IMG/VR virus record: IMGVR_UViG_3300004804_000028
Span: 1 to 25,405 of that record
Origin: a virus
Length of the DNA stretch: 25,405 nucleotides
Direction: 5' to 3' (one strand)
Shown: positions 361 through 22,077 of the stretch, one piece after another
Numbering within the stretch: position 1 is the first letter of the stretch
How the letters are laid out: the number at the start of each line of letters is the position of its first letter
The notes under the pieces: generated by a model
Databases searched by the model: none
What the model was told of the DNA's origin: nothing
The model's input: the letters and a program-made list of their open reading frames with translations, nothing else
Position numbers and translations under genes: made by a program

Positions 361-376
361 ATTATATCTTAGTTCC
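361..376 (-). promoter_or_regulatory. GGAAC-N5-TATAAT promoter for the gene at 13-354
   Basis: On the minus strand GGAAC (376-372), five bases TAAGA, then TATAAT (366-361). Six bases separate TATAAT from the GTG at 354, so a standard start 7 bases after the hexamer gives a leaderless message. It fits in the 24-base gap between two genes. Exact match to the window's recurring element. Confidence 0.75.
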
Positions 377-378
377 TA

Positions 379-585
379 TTAATAGTCCTCTTCTTCTTCT
401 CTATCGTAATTTGGGTCATCAGAAGAGATTACATTTACATACTCATCAGCAAGTAAAGCTAATTTGCGTGCAGCAGTTTGTTCTCTTTCATTTAAACTTT
501 CAATGCCATAGGTGGCAAGATATTCTAGACAGTCGACGTAATCGTCATGTAAGTCTTGAAATTTAGGAGTCGTTTTTGTTGCCAT
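379..585 (-). CDS. Hypothetical acidic protein, 68 aa
   Basis: Unrecognised small protein. It is predicted mostly helical and ends in a strongly acidic tail (REEEEDY). It has no signal peptide, membrane segment or cysteine pair. It lies three bases downstream of the GDP-mannose dehydratase gene on the same strand, so it is probably the last member of that transcript. No promoter of either recurring class and no Shine-Dalgarno sequence is visible before its ATG. An acidic C-terminus is common in small phage proteins that bind other proteins, but nothing here proves that role. Confidence 0.75.
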   Translation of the reverse strand: MATKTTPKFQDLHDDYVDCLEYLATYGIESLNEREQTAARKLALLADEYVNVISSDDPNYDREEEEDY

Positions 586-588
586 ATA

Positions 589-1704
589 TTAATTAAGTAA
601 TTCTAAATCGTTTTTAACCATTTTGCTAACTAATTCTTTAAATGTTGTATTTGGTTTCCATCCAAGCTCTTTTCTAGCTTTAGATGAATCACCATGTAAT
701 GAGTTAACTTCAGCTGGTCTATAAAAGTCTGGGCTAATTTTAGCTAATACATAGCTATAGTAGATAAACACTTCATCTACTCCTTCCCCTTCCCATGTAC
801 CGTTTATACCAACCTCTGCAAATGCTAACTCAACAAACTCTCTAACTGTATGTGTCTCATTAGATGACAATATATACTCTTCTACATTACCTTCTTGATT
901 GAGCATCTTCCATATACCTTCTACAAAGTCTTCTGCATCGCTCCAATCTCTAGTTGCATCCACATTACCAAGCACTAAAGGATCAAAGCACTCTTGTTTA
1001 TCTAATGCTTTTTTAATACGTGCTACATTTTTGGATATCTTTCTTGTAACAAACTCTTCACCTCTTCTAGTACCTTCATGATTGAATAACCAACCTTGAA
1101 TAGCATATAAATTGTAAGACTCTCTATATACTTTAACTAATTGTCTAGCAGCAGCTTTAGACGCACCATAAGGTGATCTTGGTCTAAGAGGGTGATTTTC
1201 ATCTTGTGGAGCATATTGCACATCACCAAACTCTTCTGAAGAACCAGCCTGATAAAATCTACAGGAAGGATTATATAATCTAATAGCTTCAAGTATGTTT
1301 AAAACAGAAGTTGTATTAGTCTCCCAAGTTTGTAAAGCAAAGTCCCAACTACTTCCAACAAAGCTTTGTGCAGCTAAATTAATAAAATAAGCAGGTTTAA
1401 TTCTTTCAACCAATCTACAAATAGAATGACTATCAGTTAAATCAAAATTGATAAGGTGGAATCTAGAATTATTAATATGCTTTAAGTTAGTGTGGTTATT
1501 TACACTTAAACGTCTAACACAACCTAATACTTCTAAGTCAGTATTCTTTAATAGAAAGTCCACCATATGTGATCCATCTTGACCTGTAACACCAGTAACA
1601 ACTGCACATTTTTTATCTTTAACTAATGCTACTGCTGTATCTATGTTTATCACGAATATGTTGTCTATTTTTTTATTTGAGTAATCTTTTGCTGGTGTAA
1701 GCAT
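589..1704 (-). CDS. gmd: GDP-mannose 4,6-dehydratase
   Basis: Extended short-chain dehydrogenase that converts GDP-mannose to GDP-4-keto-6-deoxymannose, the precursor of GDP-fucose, rhamnose and related deoxysugars. Visible family marks are the NAD(P)-binding TGVTGQDGSH (from residue 37), AGSSEEFG (about 153-160), the catalytic Tyr-x-x-x-Lys in SPYGASK (Y179, K183), the RRGEEFVTRKI segment, DATRDWSDAEDFV, and a C-terminal YRPAEV..L.GD.SKA..LGW. The length of 371 residues is normal; about 35 residues precede the Rossmann fold. Its ATG overlaps the stop of the upstream glycosyltransferase by one base, and a purine-rich GGAGAG lies about 8 bases upstream, one of the few Shine-Dalgarno-like sites in the window. 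It probably supplies an activated deoxysugar to the transferases encoded upstream. Confidence 0.95.
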   Translation of the reverse strand: MLTPAKDYSNKKIDNIFVINIDTAVALVKDKKCAVVTGVTGQDGSHMVDFLLKNTDLEVLGCVRRLSVNNHTNLKHINNSRFHLINFDLTDSHSICRLVERIKPAYFINLAAQSFVGSSWDFALQTWETNTTSVLNILEAIRLYNPSCRFYQAGSSEEFGDVQYAPQDENHPLRPRSPYGASKAAARQLVKVYRESYNLYAIQGWLFNHEGTRRGEEFVTRKISKNVARIKKALDKQECFDPLVLGNVDATRDWSDAEDFVEGIWKMLNQEGNVEEYILSSNETHTVREFVELAFAEVGINGTWEGEGVDEVFIYYSYVLAKISPDFYRPAEVNSLHGDSSKARKELGWKPNTTFKELVSKMVKNDLELLN

Positions 1705-3515
1705 TAATTTTCTCTCCGTTCATCTGGTTTGTAGTAAACAATTCTATTATGGTGTACTGGTGCAGCTAATAGTATAGCTGGATTAATATTCTTTTTCATC
1801 GTCTCTTGAAAGATATATGACATCCAAGTCTGCTCATAAGGATGACCCCATTTAGTGTCAATAAACATCTTCCTATTGCCTTTCTTGCTAACAATCATTG
1901 GCCAGTTAGCGTAATAAACTTCACCAGTTACGTAGCTTAATTGGTCCTGTACTTCAATACGATCAAATTTAGTTCTAGGAGCAAATGGATCTAAACCAGA
2001 TGCTGGTAATTGATCATATTCAGGCCATACAGATGATCTTACAAATTGAGGTACATTGTACCAAGATACCTGTATATTATTATCCATATACACTTCAGTA
2101 AAAGAAAGCTTTAAATAGTCAAACTCTTCTCTAGCCATAATCCTATGCACCTTTGTATAAAGGTCCGGCACGTATCTTCTAAATCCATTACGGCAAAATA
2201 CCTCATCATCTGGACCATACAATCCCATATCATCTTCAAAAAAGAACATATAATCAGCATCACTAGCTTCAAAATGCTCTGCAGCTAATTGCCTTCCACC
2301 ACATATGCCACCATTCTTACCTGTAATGATATGCTCAAAACCATACTTGTCAGCTAAAGCTTTATTACCAATTCTAGCTTGCTCATCTGTTGAGTTATCA
2401 ATTAGATACTTTCTTGGCTTTTCTAACCAATCTGGAGAGTTTTTAATCCATGTCTGTATGGTATGTTCAGCTTGTTGTGGAAAGTTAAATGTTAACATAT
2501 ACAAGTTAGTCTTGTCTACATTAGCATTATATGAACCTTTTGGTAGTACATGCTTTCTGTTAGACACTTCAGCTAATTGTACCTTATCATCTAATAATGC
2601 TTGAATGAACTTTACAATCAATCCATTTGCATCTAACTCATATCTTCTATATATATGTGGTTCTAAATGAGCCATAATGCTGAAGATACTCTCTTCAGTG
2701 CCCATATAACCTCTATTTAAAGTATCAAGGAGCAAGGAATAATATGTAGCGTTTGCCTGAGAAAGAAAATCTTTATGCCCTCCAAAAAGACCTCCCCTAC
2801 AAACATACTTCACATCATTCCTTGCAAATTCATCTATAGCTTTCTTATCAAAGCCATGAATTTCTGACTTGGTAATATACTCGTAACTTAAAAATAAAAA
2901 TGTCTTTAAGTATGGAGTAAGCTTATCTAATGCTTTATTGTCTACAAAATACTTTTCGTAAACTGTATTTGATATACCAGCATCTAACCAAATAAAGTAA
3001 TCAGTACTAAATGCATTTGATATCTTTGCATCATGTAACATAAACATCTTAGATTGTACTATTGGATTATAGAACTCTAAAACTGTTTGAGGTGCTGATT
3101 TTAACCAACCATTTTCACCTGTCTGGTTAACCCAATTTGGATCTGTTCTAAGCTTTTGTGTTTGTTCCCAAAAAGGAGCATAATAATTGCTCTTTATATC
3201 AGCTAGCTCCATTACCTTAACTAAGGTATTCTCTCTGCTTCTTCTTTCCCAAACAAAGTCAACAAACTCTTGAGGAACATAAATGTGCATATAATGTTCC
3301 ATCTCAAGTATTTTACTGAAACATTCTAGGTAATGGTCAATACTTCTACCTGGTTTACTTAAATTCCAGAGACCTGTTACAACAGTAAGGTCTTTATTTG
3401 TAACGACTGGCTTCTTCTTTTGAAGAGCAACCAAGTCATCATGTGAAAATTTACCTAATGCTTGTTCAATTGCTGTTGAGCCATACTTTTCAATTAAGCT
3501 ATTAATATCGGGCAT
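1704..3515 (-). CDS. Two-domain glycosyltransferase-like protein (HtrL/YibB-like plus GT-A-like)
   Basis: The 603-residue protein looks like a fusion. Residues about 43-325 resemble the HtrL/YibB family of putative glycosyltransferases: TVVTGLW near the start, YNPIVQSKMFML (149-160), and FIWLDAGI (174-181) as the usual acidic motif. Residues about 336-600 start a second fold, LYMLTFNFPQQAEHTI, with DYMFFFEDDMGLY (421-433), where the EDD probably binds metal and nucleotide sugar as in GT-A enzymes. Substrates cannot be read from the sequence. It sits between a glycosyltransferase pair and the GDP-mannose dehydratase. A 33-base gap precedes it, without a recognisable promoter, so it is probably cotranscribed. 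The family assignment of the first half is from memory of motifs. Confidence 0.75.
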   Translation of the reverse strand: MPDINSLIEKYGSTAIEQALGKFSHDDLVALQKKKPVVTNKDLTVVTGLWNLSKPGRSIDHYLECFSKILEMEHYMHIYVPQEFVDFVWERRSRENTLVKVMELADIKSNYYAPFWEQTQKLRTDPNWVNQTGENGWLKSAPQTVLEFYNPIVQSKMFMLHDAKISNAFSTDYFIWLDAGISNTVYEKYFVDNKALDKLTPYLKTFLFLSYEYITKSEIHGFDKKAIDEFARNDVKYVCRGGLFGGHKDFLSQANATYYSLLLDTLNRGYMGTEESIFSIMAHLEPHIYRRYELDANGLIVKFIQALLDDKVQLAEVSNRKHVLPKGSYNANVDKTNLYMLTFNFPQQAEHTIQTWIKNSPDWLEKPRKYLIDNSTDEQARIGNKALADKYGFEHIITGKNGGICGGRQLAAEHFEASDADYMFFFEDDMGLYGPDDEVFCRNGFRRYVPDLYTKVHRIMAREEFDYLKLSFTEVYMDNNIQVSWYNVPQFVRSSVWPEYDQLPASGLDPFAPRTKFDRIEVQDQLSYVTGEVYYANWPMIVSKKGNRKMFIDTKWGHPYEQTWMSYIFQETMKKNINPAILLAAPVHHNRIVYYKPDERREN

Positions 3516-3548
3516 GTAAATAAATAAGTAACACCCGTTTTATATCAA

Positions 3549-4484
3549 CTATAAAAGTTTATCATAATCAATTAGTTTTAAAAGTAGTTGAGAGCAGCCT
3601 TCTGTACTACCATTCTTTAAGTACCACTCTCTAGCATTTTTACCTATAAAGTTTAATAACTCTGTATCATCTTTTATCTCATTATATTTGCTTATCATCT
3701 TATCTGCTATAGTTTTATGGTCTTTATAATCATCTACATCTATTGCTATATAATGATAGTCTGGTATAAGAGGCTCATTAAACTTAAGCACAAATTTAGT
3801 ACGCAGCAGTACATTACCTAAGCTTAATATCTCCATATCTCTATGGCATATCTCACTATTGCCATTTATGCTTATATTAATTTTAGAAGCATTTAACTCT
3901 TTCATAAACTCTTCTGTACTAATAGTAGAGTTTTGATTTGTTCTATCAATACAGTTAAACCTATTATCACTAAACAAATACTTTCTAAATGGATCATTAG
4001 GATAGTTTCTAAAAATTGGCTTTTCTGGATTCTTTTTTGGTAAGTTTAAATTATATAATTTATCTGCTACTACTTCATGGTCAGATGTATATGATACATA
4101 ACCAAATGGTGTATACTTTAAATTATCAATTGGTTTAAATTCTATATCATCTTTAATAACGCCTGTGCTTGTAATAAGCTCTTGCATTAAATCTAAATTC
4201 ATATTACCATAATTAAATTTTGGATCAAATATCTCTCTTAATCTACCCCAAAACGATACTAATATAAACTTTTTGTTATCTGCATTTTCTATATACATAT
4301 AGAAAGGACTAAACATACAAGAGTTGCCATGGTACTTTGGATCACTCTTTCTTAAAAGGCCAGAATCAAAATATGTAAATTTAATGTCTGGTCTTCTTGC
4401 TCTTATTTTTTCAAAGTACTTTGTAAATGTGGCTGATGGGCCCCACTTGTTATCGCAAAATTTAAATGTTATGTTTACGTTCAT
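3549..4484 (-). CDS. Glycosyltransferase-like protein, paralogue A
   Basis: This 311-residue protein is a clear paralogue of the adjacent 4481-5410 product. The two align along their length, starting with a W.P...Y.K.F.KI...RPDI.F segment. The C-terminal halves are closest, sharing NDPFR, ELNASKIN, EICHRDME and GNVLLR. The block EICHRDMEILSLGNVLLR followed by PLIPDYHY resembles the C-terminal donor-binding half of GT-B glycosyltransferases, where a Glu and a glycine-containing loop hold the nucleotide sugar. This is inferred from pattern only. Its ATG overlaps the stop of its twin by four bases, so the pair is probably translationally coupled. Confidence 0.65.
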   Translation of the reverse strand: MNVNITFKFCDNKWGPSATFTKYFEKIRARRPDIKFTYFDSGLLRKSDPKYHGNSCMFSPFYMYIENADNKKFILVSFWGRLREIFDPKFNYGNMNLDLMQELITSTGVIKDDIEFKPIDNLKYTPFGYVSYTSDHEVVADKLYNLNLPKKNPEKPIFRNYPNDPFRKYLFSDNRFNCIDRTNQNSTISTEEFMKELNASKINISINGNSEICHRDMEILSLGNVLLRTKFVLKFNEPLIPDYHYIAIDVDDYKDHKTIADKMISKYNEIKDDTELLNFIGKNAREWYLKNGSTEGCSQLLLKLIDYDKLL

Positions 4485-5410
4485 TCAAGCTTCTTAAAGT
4501 CAACAAGCTTGACTAATAAGTCTGCATTGCCATCTGTACAACCGTTTCTTAAATACCATTCACGAGCATTTTTACCTATAAAATCTAATAGCTCTTTATT
4601 ATCTTTTACTTCATTATATTTGTTTATAAGCTTATCAGCTATAGTTTGATAATCTCTATAGTTATTAAAATCTACTGCAAGATAATGAAAGTCTGGAATT
4701 AAAGGCTCATGAAATTGCACTACAAACTTAGGTCTTAATAATACATTGCCTAGTGCTAATACCTCCATATCTCTATGGCATATCTCTCCATGCCCGTTAA
4801 TGTTTAAGTTAATTTTACTTGCATTTAACTCTTCCATATATTCTCTAATTGATAGGTTATTATCTCTTCTATCAATACCATCAAATCTTTTATCAGCCAT
4901 TATAAACTGCCTGAATGGATCATTAGGAAAATTTCTAAACTTAGGTCTGTCTGGGTTAATTTTAGTAATATCTAATTTAACTAAGTCTTCAGCTACTCTT
5001 TCATTCTCTGGCGATAAAGATATATAACCAAATGGGGTATACTTTAAATATGATATAGGTTTAAACTCTATATCGTTTACAGTAACACCAATACTTGTTA
5101 TTAAATCTGCCATTGAAGATAAATCAAAAAAAGAAAACCTTGATTCAAATATATCTTTTATAGAATCCCAATAAGAAATTAAAATATATCTATTATTAGC
5201 TCTATTCTTTAACATACAAAAGAAAGGTCCATACATACTTGCATGGCCAAAGTAAGTTTTATCTCTTGCTTCTTCTCTTTTTTGTACTGCATCAACAAAG
5301 TTAAACTCTATATCAGGTCTAACTTCTTTTATTTTCTTAAAGAACTTAACGTATGTAGTAGTTGGACACCAACTAAAATCATTCCATTCAAATATGCAAT
5401 CTACAATCAT
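4481..5410 (-). CDS. Glycosyltransferase-like protein, paralogue B
   Basis: This 309-residue twin of the downstream gene keeps the same key blocks: SINGNSEICHRDME there is NINGHGEICHRDME here, and both contain FIGKNAREWYL. It has no signal peptide or membrane helix, so it should act in the host cytoplasm. The tandem arrangement and moderate divergence suggest an old duplication with possible split of acceptor or donor specificity. Its start codon overlaps the stop of the 610-residue transferase by four bases. No Shine-Dalgarno sequence precedes the ATG. The GT-B-like assignment is an inference from the C-terminal pattern. Confidence 0.65.
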   Translation of the reverse strand: MIVDCIFEWNDFSWCPTTTYVKFFKKIKEVRPDIEFNFVDAVQKREEARDKTYFGHASMYGPFFCMLKNRANNRYILISYWDSIKDIFESRFSFFDLSSMADLITSIGVTVNDIEFKPISYLKYTPFGYISLSPENERVAEDLVKLDITKINPDRPKFRNFPNDPFRQFIMADKRFDGIDRRDNNLSIREYMEELNASKINLNINGHGEICHRDMEVLALGNVLLRPKFVVQFHEPLIPDFHYLAVDFNNYRDYQTIADKLINKYNEVKDNKELLDFIGKNAREWYLRNGCTDGNADLLVKLVDFKKLE

Positions 5411-7239
5411 GGTATGTATTTTTCTATTAGTTCAGGCAGATAAGGGTTCTTTTTAAAATGAGGAATACCTTTTTGTCTATATACTGTACACCCCTCATTA
5501 CCTTCATGTGAGGTATGTTTAATAACTGGGAAAGTAATAGCTCCATTACCTGCCTGCCACTCTTGCAATGTTTTATAATCTGGTGTATATTTTTCACTAT
5601 ATGTACTTATACGTTTGATATCATGTTTGCCAAGATATGCTGACATTAATATGTCGTCATTCCAATTATAATACTCATCCATAAATGCTTGGAAGTCTTC
5701 TTTAACAAACTTACGTTTATAGGAAATAGTCTTATAATGTTGAAGTATCTTAACTTTAAAGTTTTTTCTAATTGCAGTAATGTAATGATCTCTTACATCG
5801 TTATAGATTGGTTTCCAACAAGTTAATCCATCGTAACCTACTGCTGAGTTATCAAATCTAGATTGATTAATAACTTGCTCTTTAAGCATTTCTGGATGAT
5901 AAACTAAATCATCATCACAAACAACTATAATAGTTTCTGGGTTATCTGTTCTTTGAACTGTTGGGTAAAACTTAGTAATTGGTCCAAAATCATCTGTTCT
6001 AAAGATTAAAAAGTTTGGATTGAGTTTAGTTATATCACTTAACCATTGAGGTATTACATACTCTTCTCCAGTACTCTTTAATTGCAAAGGAATGTTAAAA
6101 TGTATATAATAAGGTCCTGGGTATACTTGTGATATTAAAGAATTAATACAACTCTTAATACCCGCATCATAATCAGCAGCTAATCTAGATGGAATAGTTG
6201 TTAATGATATGATTGGAGGTATTGTAGGGAATTGAAATGAATTTAAATCTAAATTATTTGGTATGGCATCACCGTCTGGATATGTCTTATTATCACTATT
6301 TCCAGCTACCTTAACTGGTTCTGGGTCTGGTTGTTTAACTGGCTCTGGCTTTTTTTCATCAGCTGCTGTAAAAGGTGGTTCATAGTACCAGTGATCACAA
6401 TCAAATTGCCATTTCTCTGTAAAGTCTTTTCTAATGAAACCTAAATGGTCTTTAGTCATGCGTCTAAAAACATTAAAGCCTGTCTCAGCATCATAACCTA
6501 GTTGTTCTTTAATTGGGTAATGGTGTGAAGGTTTACCTTGACCAGATGCCATATAGTTAACAGGTATAAAATCTGTTTCCTTATCCCAAGCTAACATAAC
6601 ATAATCAATACCTTTATCTCTCAAGTAGTAGCTTATTTTGTGATCATCACTAGCTGCTACACCCATATACTTATCAGTGAAAAAATCATCTTGAATAAAC
6701 TTACGCTTGTATGTAACTGAATGCCAATGACCTGGTACTGCAGCATGTATATCATTCTTCAAAGGAAAGTATGCATGAGCATTTAATAGTATATACTTCT
6801 TAACTCCATTTTGTTCAAACTCCCTTTTCTCAATAATAGTATCACCTCTAAAACCAATTACTGAATATGGATACTTTGTCTCTTGTCTAGTTAATATATA
6901 CTCCACCATATCATCATAATAGACTTGATCATCATCTAATGCAATAATAATGTCTTCTGGATCAGTTGCTAAGTTAAAACAACCAACTACTTTTTCAATA
7001 GGACCTCTATCTTGTTCAATGCGATTAATAATTAACTTGTTATTGTTACTTGCTAATTCAGTTAACCCATTAGGTATTACATATGGTAAATCTCTATTCT
7101 TATAGATTTGAGGTATATTAACTACTACCTTATAAGGTCTATCAGTCTTTTGATCTAAAAGAGATTGGATACATCTACTAAATGTAGGCCAAACTGCTAG
7201 TCTTTCTGGGACTGTTGTCAGGGATATAAAAATGCTCAT
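5407..7239 (-). CDS. Internally duplicated GT-A-like glycosyltransferase, 610 aa
   Basis: Two copies of one domain are joined in frame. Copy 1 (residues 1 to about 290) begins FISLTTVPERLA and has ALDDDQVYY with DDD at 102-104. Copy 2 (about 341-605) begins IISLTTIPSRLA and has VCDDDLVYHPE with DDD at 442-444. Both have (E/F)(D/Q)xGPI.K before the acidic motif, SVTYKRKF or TISYKRKF, and a late His-containing segment. The DDD triad is typical of the metal and nucleotide-sugar site of GT-A enzymes. The linker (about 293-337) is rich in Pro, Lys and Glu and probably flexible. Both copies keep their acidic triads, so both may be active, perhaps adding two sugars in sequence. It overlaps both neighbours by four bases. 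Confidence 0.78.
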   Translation of the reverse strand: MSIFISLTTVPERLAVWPTFSRCIQSLLDQKTDRPYKVVVNIPQIYKNRDLPYVIPNGLTELASNNNKLIINRIEQDRGPIEKVVGCFNLATDPEDIIIALDDDQVYYDDMVEYILTRQETKYPYSVIGFRGDTIIEKREFEQNGVKKYILLNAHAYFPLKNDIHAAVPGHWHSVTYKRKFIQDDFFTDKYMGVAASDDHKISYYLRDKGIDYVMLAWDKETDFIPVNYMASGQGKPSHHYPIKEQLGYDAETGFNVFRRMTKDHLGFIRKDFTEKWQFDCDHWYYEPPFTAADEKKPEPVKQPDPEPVKVAGNSDNKTYPDGDAIPNNLDLNSFQFPTIPPIISLTTIPSRLAADYDAGIKSCINSLISQVYPGPYYIHFNIPLQLKSTGEEYVIPQWLSDITKLNPNFLIFRTDDFGPITKFYPTVQRTDNPETIIVVCDDDLVYHPEMLKEQVINQSRFDNSAVGYDGLTCWKPIYNDVRDHYITAIRKNFKVKILQHYKTISYKRKFVKEDFQAFMDEYYNWNDDILMSAYLGKHDIKRISTYSEKYTPDYKTLQEWQAGNGAITFPVIKHTSHEGNEGCTVYRQKGIPHFKKNPYLPELIEKYIP

Positions 7240-8150
7240 GGTTTTTTGTAAAAGTATCTATCGTATTCAGGCCTATTTTTCAAGTTATTCTCATCTACTA
7301 TTCCAAATATTTTCTGCTGTACCCAATTATCGTTTGCTAAATTAGGTCCCGGGGTACCAGGCATTGTAATTTTACCCCATCTTATAATTTCAATATATTT
7401 TATGCAGAATCTTTCACCAGCTTGAGGAAAGTAATCCATTATCATATACCTACTGCAAAGTACTTTAAAGTTATACTTTTCATCCTCTGGCCAATCAACA
7501 TAAATTTGATCTCCACCATTAAAGTCTATAGCTCTATAAGTGCCTTTCTTACCTTTAATATGCGATGTATCTAAATGATGTAAACCAACCTCTGGGTTAT
7601 ATTGTAATAATGTATTAAATGAAGACTTTCTCCATAAGCAAGGTTGCACGCTATATTCATATAAGAAACCTTTTCTTGTATAAAATATTTCGTTCTCTTC
7701 AAAACCATAAGGCGTATTATTCTCATGTTTTTTCCAATTATGTGCTATAGGTTGATTAGATGCAAATGAAAATAAATCTACATTTTCACCTTTCATTAAG
7801 TTAATTAATCTATTCAATTGATCAACATTAATATCATCTATTAACATATAATCTTCACAGAAGTAAAAGAAATACTCTTCCTGGATAGAATCTATAAAGT
7901 TCTTTAATACAGGTCCAAAGTGATAACCACCATCATTAAATGGTATATTAGGAGTAATATAATTTACCTTATCACTATATGGTAAATTAGGTTGAGTAAA
8001 TCTATTAGCTACAACACTAATGTTAATATTGTCTAACCCGATGTACTTGTCAAAATACTTCAAAGACAACTCCACAATAGGAGTTGTCTTTTCGTTAGAG
8101 TGAATAACAAAGTGTACGTTGGGTACTTTATTGTTAGGTTTAGATATCAT
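7236..8150 (-). CDS. Glycosyltransferase-like protein, 304 aa
   Basis: Probable GT-A-type transferase. The segment EEYFFYFCEDYMLIDDI (about residues 90-106) looks like the beta-strand and acidic motif that holds the donor, and the N-terminus VHFVIHSNEKTTPIVELSL fits a nucleotide-binding strand-helix. No other family mark is certain. It overlaps the methyltransferase gene upstream by 11 bases and the 610-residue transferase downstream by four, so it belongs to the same transcription unit. Its early coding region contains a perfect 12-base inverted repeat (8062-8091), reported separately. The acceptor and sugar are unknown. Confidence 0.6.
   Translation of the reverse strand: MISKPNNKVPNVHFVIHSNEKTTPIVELSLKYFDKYIGLDNINISVVANRFTQPNLPYSDKVNYITPNIPFNDGGYHFGPVLKNFIDSIQEEYFFYFCEDYMLIDDINVDQLNRLINLMKGENVDLFSFASNQPIAHNWKKHENNTPYGFEENEIFYTRKGFLYEYSVQPCLWRKSSFNTLLQYNPEVGLHHLDTSHIKGKKGTYRAIDFNGGDQIYVDWPEDEKYNFKVLCSRYMIMDYFPQAGERFCIKYIEIIRWGKITMPGTPGPNLANDNWVQQKIFGIVDENNLKNRPEYDRYFYKKP
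8062..8091. repeat. Perfect inverted repeat inside a coding region
   Basis: Arms AAAGACAACTCC (8062-8073) and GGAGTTGTCTTT (8080-8091) are perfectly complementary with a six-base spacer ACAATA. On the plus strand the hairpin is followed by TTC, resembling a weak intrinsic terminator. On the minus strand it lies about 60-90 bases inside the open frame of the 304-residue transferase. Confidence 0.8.
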
Positions 8151-8895
8151 TTAAAAATTCTAATGGAGCGTCTGCTACACCTGGTGATGCATTATTAGGT
8201 AAATCTAAACCAGATAATGGGTATGAACGAGTATCAGGTGTCATAATTCTCACATATCTTTTATTTACTAAAGTAAGCTCATACACACGTGGTATTTTAT
8301 AACCAACAAATTTAGTACCTTCTGTTTTAGTAATATAATCGAATGTACCAACCCAATTGTTACCATGCACATGATTAACAACATAATACTCTCCTAACTT
8401 TTCCATCATATCAATAAACTTCTTTCTATTATCTTCGTTATCAATATAATGTATTTCAATAATAATACCTGTTGTAACTGCTGCCATTGCTGATAACTTT
8501 ACATCTTTAAAGTAATCATACTCGGCGCCTTCTGCATCTATCTTTAACAATACATCACCTTTAATGTTAAGACTGTAATAATGATCGATAAAGTCTCTAC
8601 AGTTATCTACCTTAATACCTAAACCTTCTTTCTTAAATGTCAAACCTTCTGCTGGATGTTCTTTATGATCAACAGTATGATCAAACATGTATACTGGTTT
8701 GTTATATGTTTTATAATAATCCTCCTCATAACGCCAGTCATGAGAAACACCATACGAAAATAAAGCAACTGACTTTTCTAATATATTAACTGGTGCTACA
8801 TAACCACCATCTCCGTGGTTATGCTCTCCAGGAGTTTTAGGTCCTAAGCGTACTTTGTCGACATTAATATCGAATGGTTTTAAATAATTTAACAT
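8140..8895 (-). CDS. FkbM-like / METTL24-like SAM-dependent methyltransferase
   Basis: The 251-residue protein carries the signature VLLKIDAEGAEYDYF (about 115-129), the LxKIDxEGAE motif typical of FkbM-type O-methyltransferases. Upstream, ALFSYGVSHDWRYEEDY (44-60) and VYMFDHTVD (68-76) fit the SAM-binding strand, the acidic residue that follows, and the pattern of the related Methyltransf_22 family. Such enzymes often methylate hydroxyls on sugars, which fits its place inside the glycosyltransferase cluster; capping of a growing glycan is one possible role. It starts four bases after the stop of the upstream 435-residue transferase, with no Shine-Dalgarno sequence. Confidence 0.78.
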   Translation of the reverse strand: MLNYLKPFDINVDKVRLGPKTPGEHNHGDGGYVAPVNILEKSVALFSYGVSHDWRYEEDYYKTYNKPVYMFDHTVDHKEHPAEGLTFKKEGLGIKVDNCRDFIDHYYSLNIKGDVLLKIDAEGAEYDYFKDVKLSAMAAVTTGIIIEIHYIDNEDNRKKFIDMMEKLGEYYVVNHVHGNNWVGTFDYITKTEGTKFVGYKIPRVYELTLVNKRYVRIMTPDTRSYPLSGLDLPNNASPGVADAPLEFLNDI

Positions 8896-8899
8896 AAAT

Positions 8900-11990: not shown

Positions 11991-12225
11991 TAGTACCTTC
12001 AGTGACTTGATATAGTCTAGTAACTGGATTTCTTATATCATCTGCAAAGTAACTTGCAGCCCCTCTCATATAATTCTTTTTAAGCTTATTTTTATGAACC
12101 ATTAAGTTATACATTTCAAACATTTGCATGTTACGTTTAACATTCTTCACATATGAAGGAGACTTAATACGTTTTAAATATTCAGCTTTTCTTTCTTCTG
12201 GTGTTCTTTCTTTTCTATTTTTCAC
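11980..12225 (-). CDS. Hypothetical basic protein, 81 aa, GTG start
   Basis: Unrecognised, Lys/Arg-rich, probably helical protein (KNRKERTPEERKAEYLKRI, then KNVKRNMQMFEMYNLM). The charge suggests nucleic-acid or ribosome binding, but there is no diagnostic motif. The GTG start is set by a GGAAC-N5-TATAAT promoter with only five bases between TATAAT and GTG, so the message is essentially leaderless. It is first of a two-gene unit with the 124-residue gene. Confidence 0.75.
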   Translation of the reverse strand: MKNRKERTPEERKAEYLKRIKSPSYVKNVKRNMQMFEMYNLMVHKNKLKKNYMRGAASYFADDIRNPVTRLYQVTEGTNDR

Positions 12226-12230
12226 TTTAT

Positions 12231-12246
12231 ATTATAATAATGTTCC
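12231..12246 (-). promoter_or_regulatory. GGAAC-N5-TATAAT promoter for 12225 to 11616
   Basis: Minus strand GGAAC (12246-12242), ATTAT, TATAAT (12236-12231), then five bases to the GTG at 12225. Exact match. It lies in the short gap after the bilin reductase gene. Confidence 0.72.
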
Positions 12247-13503: not shown

Positions 13504-13579
13504 TGGTGCCCCCACCAGGGATCAAACCTGGATAACTCGCTTAGAAGGCAAGGGCCTTATTCAATTAGACTATGGAGGC
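13504..13579 (-). tRNA. tRNA-Arg (UCU anticodon)
   Basis: A complete 76-base cloverleaf with encoded CCA. The acceptor stem is GCCTCCA with TGGGGGC (one G-T pair), the discriminator A. The D stem is GTCT/AGGC, the anticodon stem CTTGC/GCGAG with loop CTTCTAA giving anticodon TCT, the variable loop TTATC, and the T arm CCAGG-TTTGATC-CCTGG. It reads AGA codons, which are frequent in AT-rich phage genes. Its 5' 15 bases overlap the 3' end of the homing-endonuclease-like gene. A GGAAC-type promoter ends about 44 bases upstream. Confidence 0.95.
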
Positions 13580-14212
13580 TAAAAGTTTAGACATAAATTG
13601 CTCATTTATATCTGCTAACCTAATTATAACAATGTTCCTATATTTTTCAAGTATTATGTCTAACTTTTCTTTTTGCACTTCTATTGCATAAGGATTTTTA
13701 GGATCTAAAAATAAATTATACTTAGGTAAAAAGAAATCTGGAAAATAATTATGTGTTATACCTTTTTTATCTGTCCATTTTATAGGATCAGGTCTAATCC
13801 ATTTAATTTTTATTTTATCTAAAATTTTAGCTAATTTTAATTCCCACGTAGAGTCAAGCATGATACCTTTATATTCTATCATTTTTCTTCTTAGACGTCT
13901 ATGAGTTTTAGTTAATGCAATAGTACTCATTTTAGCTTTAGACTCTTTTGTATGTTTTCTACCTATATAGGTTTTAAGAATTTTAACAGCATTGTCATAA
14001 ACACCTTCTTTATGGTATTGTTTAATTTTTTTGGCAGCTTTTAATCTTGAAGCATGTGAGACTGCTTTTGATCTAATTTCACTTAACTTTTTTAAGTAAA
14101 TCATTTTTTTAGGGTTTTTTTCACACCACCTAGAATGATTAGCCATCCAACCTTTAGGTTTATCTTCAATGTTAAACTTTTCATTACAATGTTTACATAT
14201 ACTCAGTTTCAT
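13565..14212 (-). CDS. Homing-endonuclease-like protein (zinc finger, NUMOD3-like, PD-(D/E)XK)
   Basis: The 215-residue basic protein has three parts. Residues 6-30 form a C-x2-C...H-x3-C zinc-finger-like site (CKHC, H26, C30). Residues about 83-97 (IGRKHTKESKAKMST) resemble the NUMOD3 DNA-binding repeat found in homing endonucleases. Residues about 119-200 look like a Vsr-like PD-(D/E)XK nuclease: LDSTWELKLAKIL, HNYFPDFFLPKYNLFLDPK with D159, and AIEVQKEK with E178 and K181. Such freestanding nucleases spread by cutting relatives that lack the gene. Its 3' end runs 15 bases into tRNA-Arg. A late-type element ATTAAATA lies five bases before its ATG. Confidence 0.75.
   Translation of the reverse strand: MKLSICKHCNEKFNIEDKPKGWMANHSRWCEKNPKKMIYLKKLSEIRSKAVSHASRLKAAKKIKQYHKEGVYDNAVKILKTYIGRKHTKESKAKMSTIALTKTHRRLRRKMIEYKGIMLDSTWELKLAKILDKIKIKWIRPDPIKWTDKKGITHNYFPDFFLPKYNLFLDPKNPYAIEVQKEKLDIILEKYRNIVIIRLADINEQFMSKLLASIV
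13623..13638 (-). promoter_or_regulatory. GGAAC-N5-TATAAT promoter inside the endonuclease gene, driving tRNA-Arg
   Basis: Minus strand GGAAC (13638-13634), ATTGT, TATAAT (13628-13623). It lies within codons for RNIVIIRL near the end of the endonuclease gene. The predicted start near 13617 gives a leader of about 38 bases before tRNA-Arg, and the transcript could continue into the heme oxygenase operon. Confidence 0.65.
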
Positions 14213-14217: not shown

Positions 14218-14225
14218 TATTTAAT
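14218..14225 (-). promoter_or_regulatory. Late-type promoter ATTAAATA, N5 before the endonuclease gene
   Basis: Minus strand ATTAAATA (14225-14218), five bases, ATG at 14212. The spacing is identical to the best late genes, although the first bases differ from TATAAATA. Confidence 0.45.
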
Positions 14226-14315: not shown

Positions 14316-15047
14316 TTAGAACTTGAACTTATAACCAACATTGTAGCCAGTAATTTGATTAGCTGTGCTGGTTAGTGAGGTACGTTGAGCAAATAGATTT
14401 GCTGCAATTCCGTGCCATTCTAGACCAACTGCTGGTTGGTAATACTTTTTAACACCCTTAAGTGCTGCAATTGTAGCAGCGCCTGGATCGTTAAATCCTA
14501 GACCTAAAGCAGGTACAATTTTAAGAGCTCCAACAGTGTTAATTGGTGCACTAACACCAAATTCAAAGTTGTTGCTACGTTCAATAGTGTTATTAAGTGC
14601 ACGGCCTTCCCAGTTAAGTGCACCACCAAACCAGCTACCACTTAATTTTACAAATGGTAGGAAGTTGTGATTAGCAGCACCTGCTGCTTCTGAAGTATTA
14701 ACATGTCTTACTTCAGCACCTAATGTCAAGTCTGCTAGACTTGATGTGAACTTATAACCTGCATCTAGATAAACACGCTTTAGACCAGTTGCATCAGTTG
14801 TTGTAACTGTTTTACCAGCTACTACTGATTTTGTATCTAAGCTGCTTACTTTTGTAAATGTATTAACAGCTAAGTCAATACCATATACATTTGTTTCTAC
14901 ACCAGCTATTGCGTAGTTAGTTCCAACCAACTTACCCTCTTCAATGTACTTAGAAGCGAATGCCACGTCTAAGTTACCATTGACAGGAGCTGATTTTGCA
15001 ACTGTTGCAATTAATGCTAATGTAATAATAGTTAATAGTTTTTTCAT
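14316..15047 (-). CDS. Exported outer-membrane beta-barrel (porin-like) protein
   Basis: The 243-residue product starts with a signal peptide, MKKLLTIITLALIATVAKS, then a mature protein of alternating beta strands ending in GYNVGYKFKF. The terminal Phe and alternating aromatic pattern are the usual beta-signal for outer-membrane insertion. The early segment LDVAFASKYIEEGKLVGTN resembles the start of TorF-type putative porins (Gcw_chp family); this match is from memory. The frame is open for 12 more codons upstream, but those bases contain a GGAAC-type promoter, so the start is placed at 15047. A phage-encoded host-surface protein could change receptor exposure or nutrient entry, but this is inference. 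A terminator follows. Confidence 0.78.
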   Translation of the reverse strand: MKKLLTIITLALIATVAKSAPVNGNLDVAFASKYIEEGKLVGTNYAIAGVETNVYGIDLAVNTFTKVSSLDTKSVVAGKTVTTTDATGLKRVYLDAGYKFTSSLADLTLGAEVRHVNTSEAAGAANHNFLPFVKLSGSWFGGALNWEGRALNNTIERSNNFEFGVSAPINTVGALKIVPALGLGFNDPGAATIAALKGVKKYYQPAVGLEWHGIAANLFAQRTSLTSTANQITGYNVGYKFKF

Positions 15048-15056: not shown

Positions 15057-15072
15057 ATTTAATCTTTGTTCC
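15057..15072 (-). promoter_or_regulatory. GGAAC-N5-TTAAAT promoter for the beta-barrel gene
   Basis: Minus strand GGAAC (15072-15068), AAAGA, TTAAAT (15062-15057), nine bases, ATG at 15047. The first ten bases are identical to those of the 19844-19859 promoter. The -10 hexamer matches TATAAT in four of six positions. It decides the gene start. Confidence 0.55.
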
Positions 15073-15881: not shown

Positions 15882-15897
15882 ATTATATATCTGTTCC
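15882..15897 (-). promoter_or_regulatory. GGAAC-N5-TATAAT promoter for tmRNA
   Basis: Minus strand GGAAC (15897-15893), AGATA, TATAAT (15887-15882). The predicted start near 15876 leaves a leader of about 31 bases before the mature tmRNA 5' end, as expected for a precursor cut by RNase P. Exact match. It directly abuts the plus-strand late promoter at 15898. Confidence 0.75.
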
Positions 15898-16595: not shown

Positions 16596-16603
16596 TATAA
16601 ATA
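16596..16603 (+). promoter_or_regulatory. T4-type late promoter TATAAATA, N5 before 16609
   Basis: Exact T4 late consensus TATAAATA, five bases ATAAA, ATG at 16609. If the element is at -13 to -6 as in T4, transcription starts on the A of the ATG. Confidence 0.75.
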
Positions 16604-17252: not shown

Positions 17253-17432
17253 TTAATAAAGGTAGTGGTAAGGTTCTGTGATTGCTGTTTTAAAAGCATT
17301 CTTAACCTTCTCCCATTTACCTTTTTTGTCGTAACCTCTCTGTATCTCGGCCGTTTTGGCCCTGTAGTCTATCGATGCGATTTGCACAAGGCCAAGAATT
17401 GCCAGATACGATGCTGTTATTACTGCATTCAT
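17253..17432 (-). CDS. Small membrane-anchored protein, 59 aa
   Basis: The frame runs from ATG at 17432 to TAA at 17253. The product begins MNAVITASYLAILGLVQIAS, a likely single membrane helix or uncleaved signal anchor, and continues with a basic domain containing IDYRAKTAEIQRGYDKK, GKWEKVKNAF and EPYHYLY. I do not recognise it. Support comes from a GGAAC-N5-TATAAT promoter about 87 bases upstream on the same strand and a terminator immediately after its stop. The leader is about 80 bases, unusually long for this window. The plus-strand frame over the same bases has a poor composition and no promoter. Confidence 0.62.
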   Translation of the reverse strand: MNAVITASYLAILGLVQIASIDYRAKTAEIQRGYDKKGKWEKVKNAFKTAITEPYHYLY

Positions 17433-17518
17433 TTTTCGTATTGTTATTCATGGTTTTGTTTAGGCTTCCACCTGTTAAGGCTTTAGCGGTTCATTAATAC
17501 TTATAATAGGGTATAACA

Positions 17519-17534
17519 ATTATAAGGTAGTTCC
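17519..17534 (-). promoter_or_regulatory. GGAAC-N5-TATAAT promoter for 17253-17432
   Basis: Minus strand GGAAC (17534-17530), TACCT, TATAAT (17524-17519), predicted start near 17513. Exact match. The GGAAC part lies inside a long imperfect inverted repeat (17528-17570). Confidence 0.7.
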
Positions 17535-18369: not shown

Positions 18370-18594
18370 TTAATTAGCACGAATGTCAGAATTGCGTAGA
18401 GCTGATGCAAAATCTCTGCTATCAACTCTTACCCAGTTTTGCTCGTGCTGATTCACTACATCGAGTACCTTCGTTTGATGTCCAACAATTGTAAAATTGC
18501 CTGAACGATCACGCTCTAAAGTAACCGTATAGGTCTTAGGGCGTACATTGCTGTTATTGAGGTACTCATTCCATTGGTCTTTGTTATTCTTCAT
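18370..18594 (-). CDS. Hypothetical protein, 74 aa
   Basis: Unrecognised. A polar N-terminus (KNNKDQWNEYLNN) leads into a likely beta-rich core, KTYTVTLERDRSGNFTIVG, followed by HEQNWVRVDSRDFASALRN. No export signal. It is transcribed from a GGAAC-N5-TACAAT promoter whose predicted start gives a leader of about 15 bases, longer than in most genes of this class. The leader contains TAGGG but no proper Shine-Dalgarno sequence at the right distance. It is ended by the bidirectional terminator at 18334-18365. Confidence 0.72.
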   Translation of the reverse strand: MKNNKDQWNEYLNNSNVRPKTYTVTLERDRSGNFTIVGHQTKVLDVVNQHEQNWVRVDSRDFASALRNSDIRAN

Positions 18595-18615: not shown

Positions 18616-18631
18616 ATTGTATAATTGTTCC
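18616..18631 (-). promoter_or_regulatory. GGAAC-N5-TACAAT promoter for 18370-18594
   Basis: Minus strand GGAAC (18631-18627), AATTA, TACAAT (18621-18616). One base from the consensus -10. It faces away from the late promoter at 18654. Confidence 0.6.
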
Positions 18632-18653: not shown

Positions 18654-18661
18654 AATAAATA
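18654..18661 (+). promoter_or_regulatory. T4-type late promoter AATAAATA, N5 before 18667
   Basis: AATAAATA, five bases ATGTT, ATG at 18667. It fixes the start of the virion-like gene at 18667 rather than the in-frame ATG at 18625. Confidence 0.65.
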
Positions 18662-19433: not shown

Positions 19434-19617
19434 GAGGCGCAGTCAAAGGGTCTGAATCAAAATCTTTATAAGATTGATGAACAAGTTTATTATTAAGATC
19501 TCTTGCCAATTTAATTACTTCTTTATAGTAACTGGAAGGTACGTACTCTACACCTTCGATATCTTTTAATTTTAAATCTAACATCCTATCTATTATTTCG
19601 TAATTATACGCTGACAT
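19423..19617 (-). CDS. Hypothetical helical protein, 64 aa
   Basis: Unrecognised, probably all-helical (YEIIDRMLDLKLKDIEG, YYKEVIKLARDLNNKLV). I place the start at the ATG at 19617, overlapping the upstream gene by 14 bases. An in-frame ATG at 19653 would add 12 residues and overlap by 50; neither has a Shine-Dalgarno sequence. It is in the middle of a three-gene unit transcribed from the promoter at 19844-19859. Confidence 0.6.
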   Translation of the reverse strand: MSAYNYEIIDRMLDLKLKDIEGVEYVPSSYYKEVIKLARDLNNKLVHQSYKDFDSDPLTAPHES

Positions 19618-19834
19618 TTTTTGAAAAGTTTTTAACTGCTGATCTTGCACCATTTGCTACATAATACTGCTTAGTATTTTCAAAAGACTCTTTAGTAAAT
19701 ATTTCTATTTGACCAGCTGTTTTATGACCGTAACACATTCTACCGAATCTATTACGTTCAGTTTCACGTACTGTAGGTACGTAGCCAGGTTCAGGAAGTA
19801 ATCCCATTTTAATTAAGTTACTAATATCTTTCAT
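19604..19834 (-). CDS. Hypothetical protein, 76 aa
   Basis: Unrecognised. It has a conserved-looking core PEPGYVPTVRETERNRFGRMCYGHK and a basic C-terminus (GARSAVKNFSKN). No membrane segment or metal site is certain. It is first in the three-gene unit and is preceded by a GGAAC-N5-TATAAT promoter with nine bases between TATAAT and ATG, so its leader is only about two or three bases. Confidence 0.72.
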   Translation of the reverse strand: MKDISNLIKMGLLPEPGYVPTVRETERNRFGRMCYGHKTAGQIEIFTKESFENTKQYYVANGARSAVKNFSKNVSV

Positions 19835-19843
19835 TTTACTTTA

Positions 19844-19859
19844 ATTATATCTTTGTTCC
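19844..19859 (-). promoter_or_regulatory. GGAAC-N5-TATAAT promoter for 19834 to 19227
   Basis: Minus strand GGAAC (19859-19855), AAAGA, TATAAT (19849-19844). It contains the stop codon of the upstream metallopeptidase gene: the last codons, for G-T-K-I-stop, are the promoter itself. Exact match. Confidence 0.72.
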
Positions 19860-20318
19860 TCTATACTTACCTAATCTTTTAAAGCTCTTCTTTAAGGTAA
19901 CTAACCTATTATAAATATTAACAACCTTAAGGAGCGTTAATCTCTCATATGCTCTTGCATCAATCTCTATAGGAGATCGCATATAAGACTTTATAGATGT
20001 CTCATCATAGTTAGCTTTAGTTATAGGAATTTTAAATACTTTGTCCTGTATAAAATGTCTAAACTCGTGTAGCAAAGTTACATAAAATATTTTTTGATCA
20101 AACACTAGTTCAGATATATTAATCCGTACATTTCTACCTGCCTGAAATGCATAATAGCTATCAATATTTGCTGTAAGTTTTAATCTTATAATATAATCTC
20201 TTTTCTTTTTTACATTATAAATACTATCAAACATTAAAGAATAAACGCACGATAATACTTGCCAATCAATTTGGTTAAATCTTTTTTTAAGTTTATTATC
20301 TGGTTTAAAAACTATCAT
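19845..20318 (-). CDS. Zinc-metallopeptidase-like protein, 157 aa
   Basis: Contains LLHEFRHFIQ (82-91), an HExxH motif (H84, E85, H88) that would bind zinc, and about 30 residues later SPIEIDARAYE (115-125), where E118 or E124 could be the third ligand, as in gluzincins. The N-terminal 80 residues form a likely alpha/beta support domain (DYIIRLKLTANID, NVRINISELVF). Phages carry similar small HExxH proteins of unknown target. No signal peptide, so it is intracellular. Its ATG overlaps the stop of the RadA-like gene by four bases, suggesting coupled translation. Confidence 0.72.
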   Translation of the reverse strand: MIVFKPDNKLKKRFNQIDWQVLSCVYSLMFDSIYNVKKKRDYIIRLKLTANIDSYYAFQAGRNVRINISELVFDQKIFYVTLLHEFRHFIQDKVFKIPITKANYDETSIKSYMRSPIEIDARAYERLTLLKVVNIYNRLVTLKKSFKRLGKYRGTKI

Positions 20319-21331
20319 GCTGCATTGTAATTATCTAACACACCACTTAAATTGTGAACTGGTCCAACTACAATACTTTCAGACATGTTGCTAAGTCTTG
20401 CAGGCCTTACAATAGTCTCTAATGATATTGTTGGTATAACTTTATACACTGCATCGTCTCCTCTACCAAACTTCTTAATTTTATTTCTTTCACACATTTC
20501 TTTTAATAATGTATAGGCCTGTGAAGGAGATATTCCCAATTCATCCATTACTCTAACTTTAGTAATGTAAGGTGGCTCAGACATATCTAATACTTGTTGC
20601 ATACGTTCTTGATTACGTTCTGCTTTTGAAGGTATTTTAATTTCTTCTTTAATACCATTAAACTTAAACCCCGTGCCAGTTAATATTGCACTATACTCCA
20701 TACAAGGACCAAAACGGTTCTTAGAGAAAGAAATAACTTTAGCATTTAAGTCCATTTGCTCTTCATCTAAATATATCTCCATATTAACGTCAACAGTATG
20801 AGGTATAAGAGTGCCACCTTTTAAAACACCGCCTTTAGTTAAGTGCATAATAAAGAACAACGCACATTCATTATCTTTAGCAGCTTTTACCAATTTAGTA
20901 ATTGCCATAGCCTCTAATTGTCTGCTATTTAACTTTTTATCGCTAGTTAAAGCTTGAAATGAATCAATAACTAATGCATCATAACTTTGAGTCACTTCGC
21001 ATAAAGTCTCAATATCAGTTTCATTTGCAATATTAACATTACGTACATTTAAACGGTTGCAATTAAAAGCTAATTGGTACTTATTTTCTTCACCAGATGC
21101 ATATGCAACATTATAACCGTTTAAAGCTAATGCTTCAAACAACTGCAATAAGAATGTAGTTTTACCGCATCCTGCTTTTGCAGTTACAGTAAATGAAGAG
21201 CCAGGCAATATGCCTTGACCAAATATCTCATCTAATGTTGCTACATTAGTCTTCATTCTTCGATTAAAGATATCTGGTATCATTATATCAGATACCTTTT
21301 GGAATTTAGATTTTTCTAGGTTTAAGTTCAT
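20315..21331 (-). CDS. RadA-like RecA-fold ATPase with C-terminal winged-helix-like region
   Basis: The RecA-type core (about 27-225) has Walker A TAKAGCGKTTF (50-60), ASGEEN (78-83), Walker B DALVIDSFQ (118-126), MHLTKGG (162-168), and KNRFG (204-208), a motif diagnostic of RadA/Sms branch-migration proteins. The N-terminal zinc finger and C-terminal Lon-like domain of bacterial RadA are absent. Instead residues about 235-310 (YITKVRVMDELGISPSQAYTLLKEM) look like a winged helix for DNA binding. It may act as a phage recombination or replication helicase/loader. The start lies exactly six bases after TATAAT of a GGAAC promoter, so it is predicted leaderless. Confidence 0.83.
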   Translation of the reverse strand: MNLNLEKSKFQKVSDIMIPDIFNRRMKTNVATLDEIFGQGILPGSSFTVTAKAGCGKTTFLLQLFEALALNGYNVAYASGEENKYQLAFNCNRLNVRNVNIANETDIETLCEVTQSYDALVIDSFQALTSDKKLNSRQLEAMAITKLVKAAKDNECALFFIMHLTKGGVLKGGTLIPHTVDVNMEIYLDEEQMDLNAKVISFSKNRFGPCMEYSAILTGTGFKFNGIKEEIKIPSKAERNQERMQQVLDMSEPPYITKVRVMDELGISPSQAYTLLKEMCERNKIKKFGRGDDAVYKVIPTISLETIVRPARLSNMSESIVVGPVHNLSGVLDNYNAA

Positions 21332-21337
21332 AGTATT

Positions 21338-21353
21338 ATTATATGGCTGTTCC
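21338..21353 (-). promoter_or_regulatory. GGAAC-N5-TATAAT promoter for the RadA-like gene
   Basis: Minus strand GGAAC (21353-21349), AGCCA, TATAAT (21343-21338), six bases, ATG at 21331. Exact match; it fills the 23-base gap between genes. Confidence 0.75.
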
Positions 21354-21354
21354 T

Positions 21355-21765
21355 TTATATGAATTTCTTTATATCTCTATTAAAATTTCTAGTGAAGTTA
21401 TCCTCAATTATAGTCATTTCATTATTAGTCTTAATAATAGCTTCTTTATTAAAGTTGCCATCTAATGTATTAAGACATGATTTATAACAGATTATAAGAT
21501 AATCAGAATAAGCATTTAAAGAAAACTTATCATCATCTTTATAACCTTGATCTTCTCTTTGCTTTTGGATTGCACCCTTTTTAGCAAAGGTTTTAAGAAA
21601 TAGCTTAAAATTATTTTTATATTGCTTTTTAACAAGCTTCTCAAGAAACTTGTGGTAAATGGGAATCATCTCCCCAGTTACAGAGCATTTAGCTTTATAA
21701 GAAGAAGGTACTTCTACCTCTCCATCGCTAAATTCGTAAGTAAAAAATTTCTTTTTCTTTGCCAT
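21355..21765 (-). CDS. Hypothetical basic protein, 136 aa
   Basis: Unrecognised. A Lys-rich start (MAKKKKFFTYEF) is followed by VPSSYKAKCSVTGEMIPIYHKFLEKLV and long charged helices (KQYKNNFKLFLKTFAKKG). A single Cys pairs with none nearby, so no zinc finger. It precedes the RadA-like gene and has its own GGAAC promoter five bases upstream. The position suggests a DNA-metabolism accessory role, but no motif supports a specific one. Confidence 0.72.
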   Translation of the reverse strand: MAKKKKFFTYEFSDGEVEVPSSYKAKCSVTGEMIPIYHKFLEKLVKKQYKNNFKLFLKTFAKKGAIQKQREDQGYKDDDKFSLNAYSDYLIICYKSCLNTLDGNFNKEAIIKTNNEMTIIEDNFTRNFNRDIKKFI

Positions 21766-21770
21766 ATATT

Positions 21771-21786
21771 ATTATATCACAGTTCC
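21771..21786 (-). promoter_or_regulatory. GGAAC-N5-TATAAT promoter for 21355-21765
   Basis: Minus strand GGAAC (21786-21782), TGTGA, TATAAT (21776-21771), five bases, ATG at 21765. The element sits in a small palindrome CACAG-GAA-CTGTG. Exact match. Confidence 0.73.
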
Positions 21787-21815
21787 TGTGAAGATAATAT
21801 AGTAAGCATAAAATG

Positions 21816-21831
21816 GGAACTGTGCTATAAT
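21816..21831 (+). promoter_or_regulatory. Plus-strand GGAAC-N5-TATAAT promoter with no gene in sense
   Basis: GGAAC (21816-21820), TGTGC, TATAAT (21826-21831), predicted start about 21838. It is the only copy of the element on the plus strand and is divergent from the promoter at 21771-21786; the two share GGAACTGTG. Downstream it reads antisense through the 21831-22055 gene, then toward the fibre gene at 22145. Confidence 0.55.
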
Positions 21832-22055
21832 TAACGTAGCACAGCCCAATCGTTATATTCAACATCAATCTTACGGTCGCTAATTTCTGCGACTGAAAGA
21901 ATACTACTAGTAGTGATATTAACTAGGTAGCCTGGACCATATTTACGATCTGGTACAAACTTCCAATTCTCTCCCATGCCTCTAATATAACCGACACGAT
22001 CAGAACGTAACTCACCGTTATTAAAACATTTAATTATGTATTCTGCAATAGTCAT
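21831..22055 (-). CDS. Hypothetical protein, 74 aa
   Basis: Unrecognised. It begins MTIAEYIIKCFNNGELRSD and contains GYIRGMGENWKFVPDRKYG, then a beta-rich end. An in-frame ATG lies eight codons upstream (22079), but those codons are the GGAAC-N5-TATAAT promoter plus its six-base spacer, so the true start is 22055 and the message leaderless. This corrects an otherwise natural over-long call. A plus-strand promoter over its 3' end could produce antisense RNA against it. Confidence 0.72.
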   Translation of the reverse strand: MTIAEYIIKCFNNGELRSDRVGYIRGMGENWKFVPDRKYGPGYLVNITTSSILSVAEISDRKIDVEYNDWAVLR

Positions 22056-22061
22056 AAATTG

Positions 22062-22077
22062 ATTATATTCACGTTCC
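22062..22077 (-). promoter_or_regulatory. GGAAC-N5-TATAAT promoter for 21831-22055
   Basis: Minus strand GGAAC (22077-22073), GTGAA, TATAAT (22067-22062), six bases, ATG at 22055. Exact match. It decides the start codon. Confidence 0.75.

Follow-up and report, generated by a model that had tools for sequence, protein, structure and literature searches.

GGAAC-N5-TATAAT, a predicted promoter class in an uncultured clade of T4-superfamily phages

What is the short sequence GGAAC-N5-TATAAT that recurs along a 25,405-base virus fragment, and what could read it? The fragment is IMG/VR record IMGVR_UViG_3300004804_000028 (positions 1-25,405; 33% GC), and this whole stretch is called the window below. 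A preliminary description listed twelve copies, ten of them exact, and proposed a recurring promoter class. Our analysis upholds that proposal through recurrence of the element in related contigs, its fixed spacing, its distance to start codons, its conservation at orthologs and its partition by gene class. The element is, on the sequence evidence, a promoter class of an uncultured T4-superfamily clade that serves mainly small orphan genes together with tRNA and transfer-messenger RNA (tmRNA) genes.

The element in the window and in related phages

All twelve copies are found at the coordinates first given for them, and the ten exact ones compare with 0.03 expected (400 dinucleotide shuffles, maximum 1), in line with the earlier estimate of far less than one by chance. 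The reversed pattern has no match in the window, and GGAAC-N5-TATAAT is the commonest pair of a pentamer and a hexamer at this gap there. The two near-matches had been said to differ only in the -10 hexamer. That at 18616..18631 has one mismatch (TACAAT); that at 15057..15072 has two (TTAAAT) and is better taken as a degenerate E-like site, E class being our term for GGAAC-N5-TATAAT promoters. All sites lie on the minus strand except one. As had been noticed, a start codon follows the -10 within 5-9 nt at seven of them: 361..376 (GTG 6 nt downstream, gene 13-354), 12231..12246 (GTG 5 nt, gene 11980-12225), 15057..15072 (ATG 9 nt, an outer-membrane-like protein), 19844..19859 (ATG 9 nt, gene 19604-19834), 21338..21353 (ATG 6 nt, a RadA/DnaB-like ATPase, 20315-21331), 21771..21786 (ATG 5 nt, gene 21355-21765) and 22062..22077 (ATG 6 nt). 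Two other putative promoters precede RNA genes on the same strand: 13623..13638 lies upstream of tRNA-Arg(TCT) (13504..13579), and 15882..15897 lies 36 nt upstream of a phage tmRNA (15451..15845; Rfam RF00023, E=1.5e-38). Site 17519..17534 is followed by a leader of ~85 nt and then by a small open reading frame (ORF) at 17253-17432. The link to genes holds at most sites, with two corrections: 13623 falls within the 3' end of an ORF, and the plus-strand copy at 21816..21831, exact and of uncertain function, pairs with 21771-21786 as an inverted repeat, with no evident gene following it.

Viral contigs were scanned for GGAAC-N5-TATAAT-N6-ATG, and the element was then counted without the ATG condition in 50 of the matches listed. 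It recurs in at least dozens of uncultured T4-superfamily phage contigs, with up to 55 sites per record among the 50 records, mostly on one strand, the reversed control being nearly silent; densities reach 24 sites in 51 kb, 23 in 80 kb and 55 in 221 kb. The spacing is fixed: a spacer of 5 bp was found at 330 sites, against 3, 1, 0, 2 and 1 sites with 3, 4, 6, 7 and 8 bp (18 records), and in 1.46 Mb there are 351 cases of GGAAC beginning 10 bp upstream of TATAAT, where 2.0 would be expected. The related records had been selected for at least one site with N6ATG, and the window had not; such selection cannot account for dozens of sites per record or for the fixed spacing. In promoters of extracytoplasmic function (ECF) sigma factors GGAAC serves as the -35 and lies about 16 bp from the -10; an ECF reading was rejected on the spacer counts just given.

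The related contigs encode T4-type terminase, sheath, portal, capsid, polymerase and gp55, and their homologs of gp17, gp18, gp20, gp23, gp43 and gp55 place them in the T4 superfamily. The nearest named phages are distant (31% identity for gp43, 34-37% for terminase), and some clade proteins have no match at all. Scans of viral contigs with the helicase and the tail fibre gave no relatives. Most protein families of the window are common to one relative (G040) and several to another (G030), and it also carries a tail fibre gene and late motifs; thus we place it in this clade.

Outside the clade the element is not found as a class. The cultured phages HTVC008M, Mosig, Melnitz, P-HM1, Milchi, phiM9 and DSL-LC03 have no site and T4 has one, and a short-consensus BLAST against cultured phages gave chance matches only. 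No enrichment was seen in 36 diverse genomes or in 195 Verrucomicrobiota genomes, 79 of which have any match, with counts like those of the reversed control; for lack of enrichment in the latter, we do not regard the element as an ordinary host promoter. A strict consensus scan of bacterial genomes had no match, a looser one picked up singletons here and there, which whole-genome counts identify as background, and relatives of PcyX lack the motif. No description of the element was found in the literature searched, subscription literature lying outside that search.

Conservation at orthologs points in the same direction. Upstream of orthologs in G040 and G030, whose proteins are 50-73% identical to those of the window, the box is kept and the flanks have diverged. 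The box stands before gene 21831-22079 in all three genomes, before the ortholog of gene 13-354 in G040 (GGAACTATGATATAAT) and before that of gene 18370-18594 in G030, where GGAAC-N5-TATAAT is exact and the window has TACAAT. One-base variants of the -10 are found in G040 upstream of the orthologs of 20315-21331 (GGAAC-N5-TACAAT) and 21355-21765, and G030 has no box upstream of either. A further G040 site lies about 44 nt upstream of its tmRNA gene. Among ATPase orthologs, 2/12 have a site at the strict leaderless distance discussed below; a looser count of nearby sites, 8/11, was set aside.

Some side observations concern these sites. Inverted repeats (AGTTCC...GGAACT) that hold GGAAC copies are seen at 21771-21831 of the window and at about 11145-11225 of L179, and may be terminators or divergent promoters. 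Leaders of ~40-85 nt with hairpin-like repeats (e.g. GGCGGTAACGCC) follow some GGAAC promoters (window 17440-17518; L136 near 6953; L173 near 3913) and are possibly a common RNA element. The tmRNA, missed by ARAGORN and found by Rfam, has an apparently long tag reading frame, and G040 also has a tmRNA.

Start-codon distances and the partition of promoters by gene

The distance from the end of TATAAT to the start codon is 6 nt in 168/340 sites and 5 nt in 36. In the same genomes, the late motifs NATAAATA, NTTAAATA, ACTAAATA and TATAAATA end exactly 5 nt before an ATG in 112/228, 49/138, 21/40 and 39/87 cases. The sigma70 -10 spans -12 to -7 and the T4 late box -13 to -6. With these established positions, either offset makes the A of AUG the +1, and leaderless mRNAs are to be expected, a consequence that the preliminary description did not draw. 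That two classes agree on +1 in spite of unequal offsets is the strongest in-silico argument for both being promoters. Besides, Shine-Dalgarno motifs are nearly absent (32/928 ATG genes, against 18 by shuffling). For the promoter class and the leaderless starts, taken alone, we think that little doubt is left by the sequence data. The leaderless signal in one Verrucomicrobiota genome was too weak for use, and an archaeal host with a TATA box was rejected, TATAAT being only 12 nt from the start codon. The exact late offset is seen, for example, in the clade contigs L145 and L140, where late genes look leaderless too. These late promoters, of the type known from T4 and cyanophages (NATAAATA, gp55), occur in the same phages as the GGAAC sites, together with a gp55-like sigma, and form a class separate from those sites; their position 5 nt before ATG, predicted to be leaderless, is unlike that in cyanophage P-HM1, whose late motifs lie mostly ~19-25 nt from ATG. 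TA-led leaderless bacterial genes likewise have a -10 about 12 bp before the start codon (PMC3160421); what differs here is the added conserved box at -22 to -18 and the coverage of whole phage gene classes.

When promoters were assigned to genes with T4 homologs, three classes separated. Structural genes with a recognisable promoter have the late motif in 36/36 cases and GGAAC in none. Replication and transcription genes have TTGA-N16/17-TATAAT in 18 cases, a late motif in 2 and GGAAC in 1. The small orphans, by which we mean unannotated proteins under 120 aa, have GGAAC in 151 cases, and the same class also serves tRNA and tmRNA genes. TTGA-N16-TATAAT is a separate class, leaderless by position as well, found before replication genes and gp55 (L158, L159, L326); in G024 it precedes gp32, gp41, gp43, gp44, uvsX and gp55, and the GGAAC box is absent from it in the same genomes. 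We infer an "early" timing of the GGAAC class from the type of gene that it serves; in T4, tRNA genes are middle (PMC2988021). The window is divided alike, with minus-strand GGAAC sites before small genes, tRNA and tmRNA, and late motifs before the tail fibre gene and most other plus-strand genes. A T4-type late promoter (TATAAATA, 22132..22139, plus strand) lies 5 nt before the ATG of the tail fibre gene at 22145, and late-type motifs lie at the same distance before the ATG of 16609 (TATAAATA, 16596..16603, plus strand), an ATG at about 18667 (AATAAATA, 18654..18661, plus strand; read from sequence) and the ATG of 13565-14212 (ATTAAATA, 14218..14225, minus strand).

Could the element be something else than a promoter, such as a repeated operator, a translation signal or a mobile repeat? 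The copies that lie in inverted repeats or inside ORFs would fit, but others precede tRNA and tmRNA genes, the promoter-type -10 stands at the right distance, late genes are excluded, and the box stays while its flanks diverge. We consider such a reading very improbable. Enrichment upstream of genes over shuffled sequence, whose absence the preliminary description had set beforehand as refuting its proposal, was found.

The box at -22 to -18 and its reader

The pentamer at -22 to -18 was examined in 350 ORFs with TATAAT 5-7 nt before ATG. It is exactly GGAAC in 215 and one mismatch away in 27, the remainder being mostly unrelated and the next pentamer reaching 8; usage of GGAAC is near all-or-none. 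Conversely, TATAAT is exact in 215/275 of the GGAAC located 21-23 nt before ATG. Preferred flanking bases are WWAA on the upstream side, TCTGA within the spacer and AATAGT ahead of ATG, and the extended -10 TG at -15/-14 is enriched (83/350 vs 214/3016). At most sites there is no TTGACA -35 at 16-18 bp. The 305 sites without TTGA show no conservation at -35, and outside two genomes, G027 and G039, TTGA is found at -35 spacing in 22/336 sites (1.3% expected). In those two it stands at the normal spacing of 16-17 bp in 23/24 sites. The earlier statement that no -35 is shared thus stands for most window sites and not for 22062, with TTGA at spacing 16, or for 13623. Many sigma70 promoters lack a -35, and its lack limits the subtype, not the kind. 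As TTGA is rare in most contigs and near-universal in G027 and G039, the box is taken as a spacer element that can occur with or without a -35. The class, with its TATAAT at a fixed distance from the predicted +1, is in our reading of the sequences a real sigma70-type class, in which the box can replace the -35.

The mechanism that we propose is as follows. Host RNA polymerase (RNAP) with a sigma70-type factor would bind TATAAT as a standard -10 (-12 to -7) and begin transcription at the A of the start codon, so that the mRNAs have no leader. The AA-GGAAC box (-24 to -18) would give the upstream contact that otherwise comes from the missing -35, and a phage-supplied protein on or inside the polymerase complex would read it, which would give phage promoters an advantage over those of the host; these last two steps are the weakest. 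This would resemble T4 sigma appropriation, with the box about 10 bp nearer to the -10. We consider a phage-supplied reader the likeliest because of the sharp specificity, the absence of the box from hosts and its lack in cultured T4-like phages and in the TTGA class of the same genomes. Several points weigh against it. With TTGA at normal spacing in G027 and G039, there is hardly a place for a separate activator there. No DNA-binding protein could be named as a candidate reader, and transcription of early genes normally precedes the synthesis of phage proteins, an injected factor being the exception. For the whole statement, that is, promoter class, leaderless starts and phage-supplied reader, we give a probability of roughly 0.5.

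The same facts bear on an intrinsic element, that is, a strong Z-like spacer box read by host RNAP itself through the beta' zipper and sigma region 3, which would make these sites strong early promoters needing neither a -35 nor a phage protein. The preliminary description had supposed that sigma-70 promoters have no conserved box at -22 to -18; yet the weak Z-element has been described precisely there, read by the RNAP beta' subunit and able to substitute for the -35 (PMC10911233). Besides the identical position and initiation without a -35, which here is judged by position, the coexistence with a -35 in G027 and G039, the early-type gene set, and the fixed spacing and TG enrichment, which fit contacts within the holoenzyme, speak for it; T4 early promoters are likewise super-consensus for host RNAP (PMC2988021). 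However, the reported Z consensus (AACCT) is different and loosely conserved whereas GGAAC is nearly invariant, and GGAAC before TATAAT is not enriched in the sampled Verrucomicrobiota or other genomes. We hold the intrinsic reading to be possible, though doubtful.

Another candidate comes from the phages themselves. Besides the gp55-type factor of the clade, G008, G009 and G028 encode full RpoD-like sigma70 proteins (sigma1.2-4; L142:17823-18725, L179:9940-11145 and L193:10743-11906), which might replace the host sigma and recognise the class. All three genomes carry sites, with a degenerate GGAAC site upstream of the G028 sigma gene; but the sigma4 helix, which has a role in promoter recognition, is of the ordinary RpoD type, and no homolog was found in G024 (221 kb, 55 sites) or G031 (23 sites), records that may be incomplete. 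It is an unlikely reader in our opinion. Over sigma2-4 the G009 sigma shows about 65-74% identity with most Verrucomicrobiota RpoD found, against 62% or less for the other phyla sampled, which suggests Verrucomicrobiota as host phylum; for the window, this suggestion comes solely through clade membership.

The search for other readers leaves the earlier idea of a phage activator or altered polymerase as a proposal. T4 MotA and AsiA had no phmmer match at E<0.1, a test that is weak for diverged homologs and incomplete contigs. T7 RNAP had none either, and a Pfam search for it was negative with its controls silent too. A multisubunit phage RNAP was rejected, no RpoC homolog being found in clade contigs. 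Conserved small proteins of the replication module belong to no telling family. An ~80 aa family (e.g. L325:8894-9124), which keeps an upstream GGAAC site in 4/5 genomes, one with TAAAAT, is an unproven candidate regulator.

Compared with known systems, the class is like T4 middle promoters in that a phage box replaces the -35, TATAAT is strict, an extended -10 is present in part and host RNAP is presumed. The MotA box is (a/t)(a/t)(a/t)TGCTTtA, centred at -30 and 12 +/-1 bp from the -10. GGAAC, in contrast, lies 5 bp from the -10, and GGAAC sites hold no information at -27 to -40, so the preliminary description was right in setting the MotA box aside. Moreover, replication genes, which are middle in T4, mostly have TTGA promoters here, although tRNA genes do belong to the GGAAC class. 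T4 early promoters likewise serve many small orphan genes and are super-consensus with extra conserved bases, but they keep the -35 and UP elements, unlike most sites here, whose mRNAs are predicted to be leaderless. We file the element with phage promoter classes replacing the -35, outside the MotA and Z-element families.

Neighbouring features and meaning for the clade

Some other features of these genomes deserve mention. In G040 (L168-L169) and G030 (L330-L331) about 20-26 tRNA genes stand in arrays, interspersed with several GGAAC sites. At 12250-13463 the window encodes a heme oxygenase together with a ferredoxin-dependent bilin reductase, a pair carried here by a T4-type phage; a late-type motif precedes the gene for the oxygenase. 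At 14316-15045 there is a beta-barrel-looking outer-membrane protein with a signal peptide, common to G030 and G040 and with no Pfam match, and at 1704-11460 a glycosyltransferase block (GlcNAc-type, family 2, HtrL/YibB-like) adjoins a GDP-mannose dehydratase gene.

Early and middle control in cyanomyoviruses has been called unclear in a review of cyano-T4 phages (PMC2984593), and no middle promoters were found in Melnitz (PMC9004378). In the present lineage, of which no member has been cultured, three promoter classes divide cleanly along gene function. We see about an even chance that this lineage has evolved a dedicated reader of the GGAAC spacer box that replaces the -35 contact, together with leaderless early, middle and late mRNAs. 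The leaderless rule lets gene starts be called to the exact base in these genomes, the signature GGAAC-N5-TATAAT-N6-ATG finds such phages in metagenomes, and the Verrucomicrobiota-type sigma70 in one contig offers a lead to the host of a phage group for which there was none. Moreover, the GGAAC box offers a simple test of spacer DNA at -22 to -18 as a full promoter element, and of its reader.

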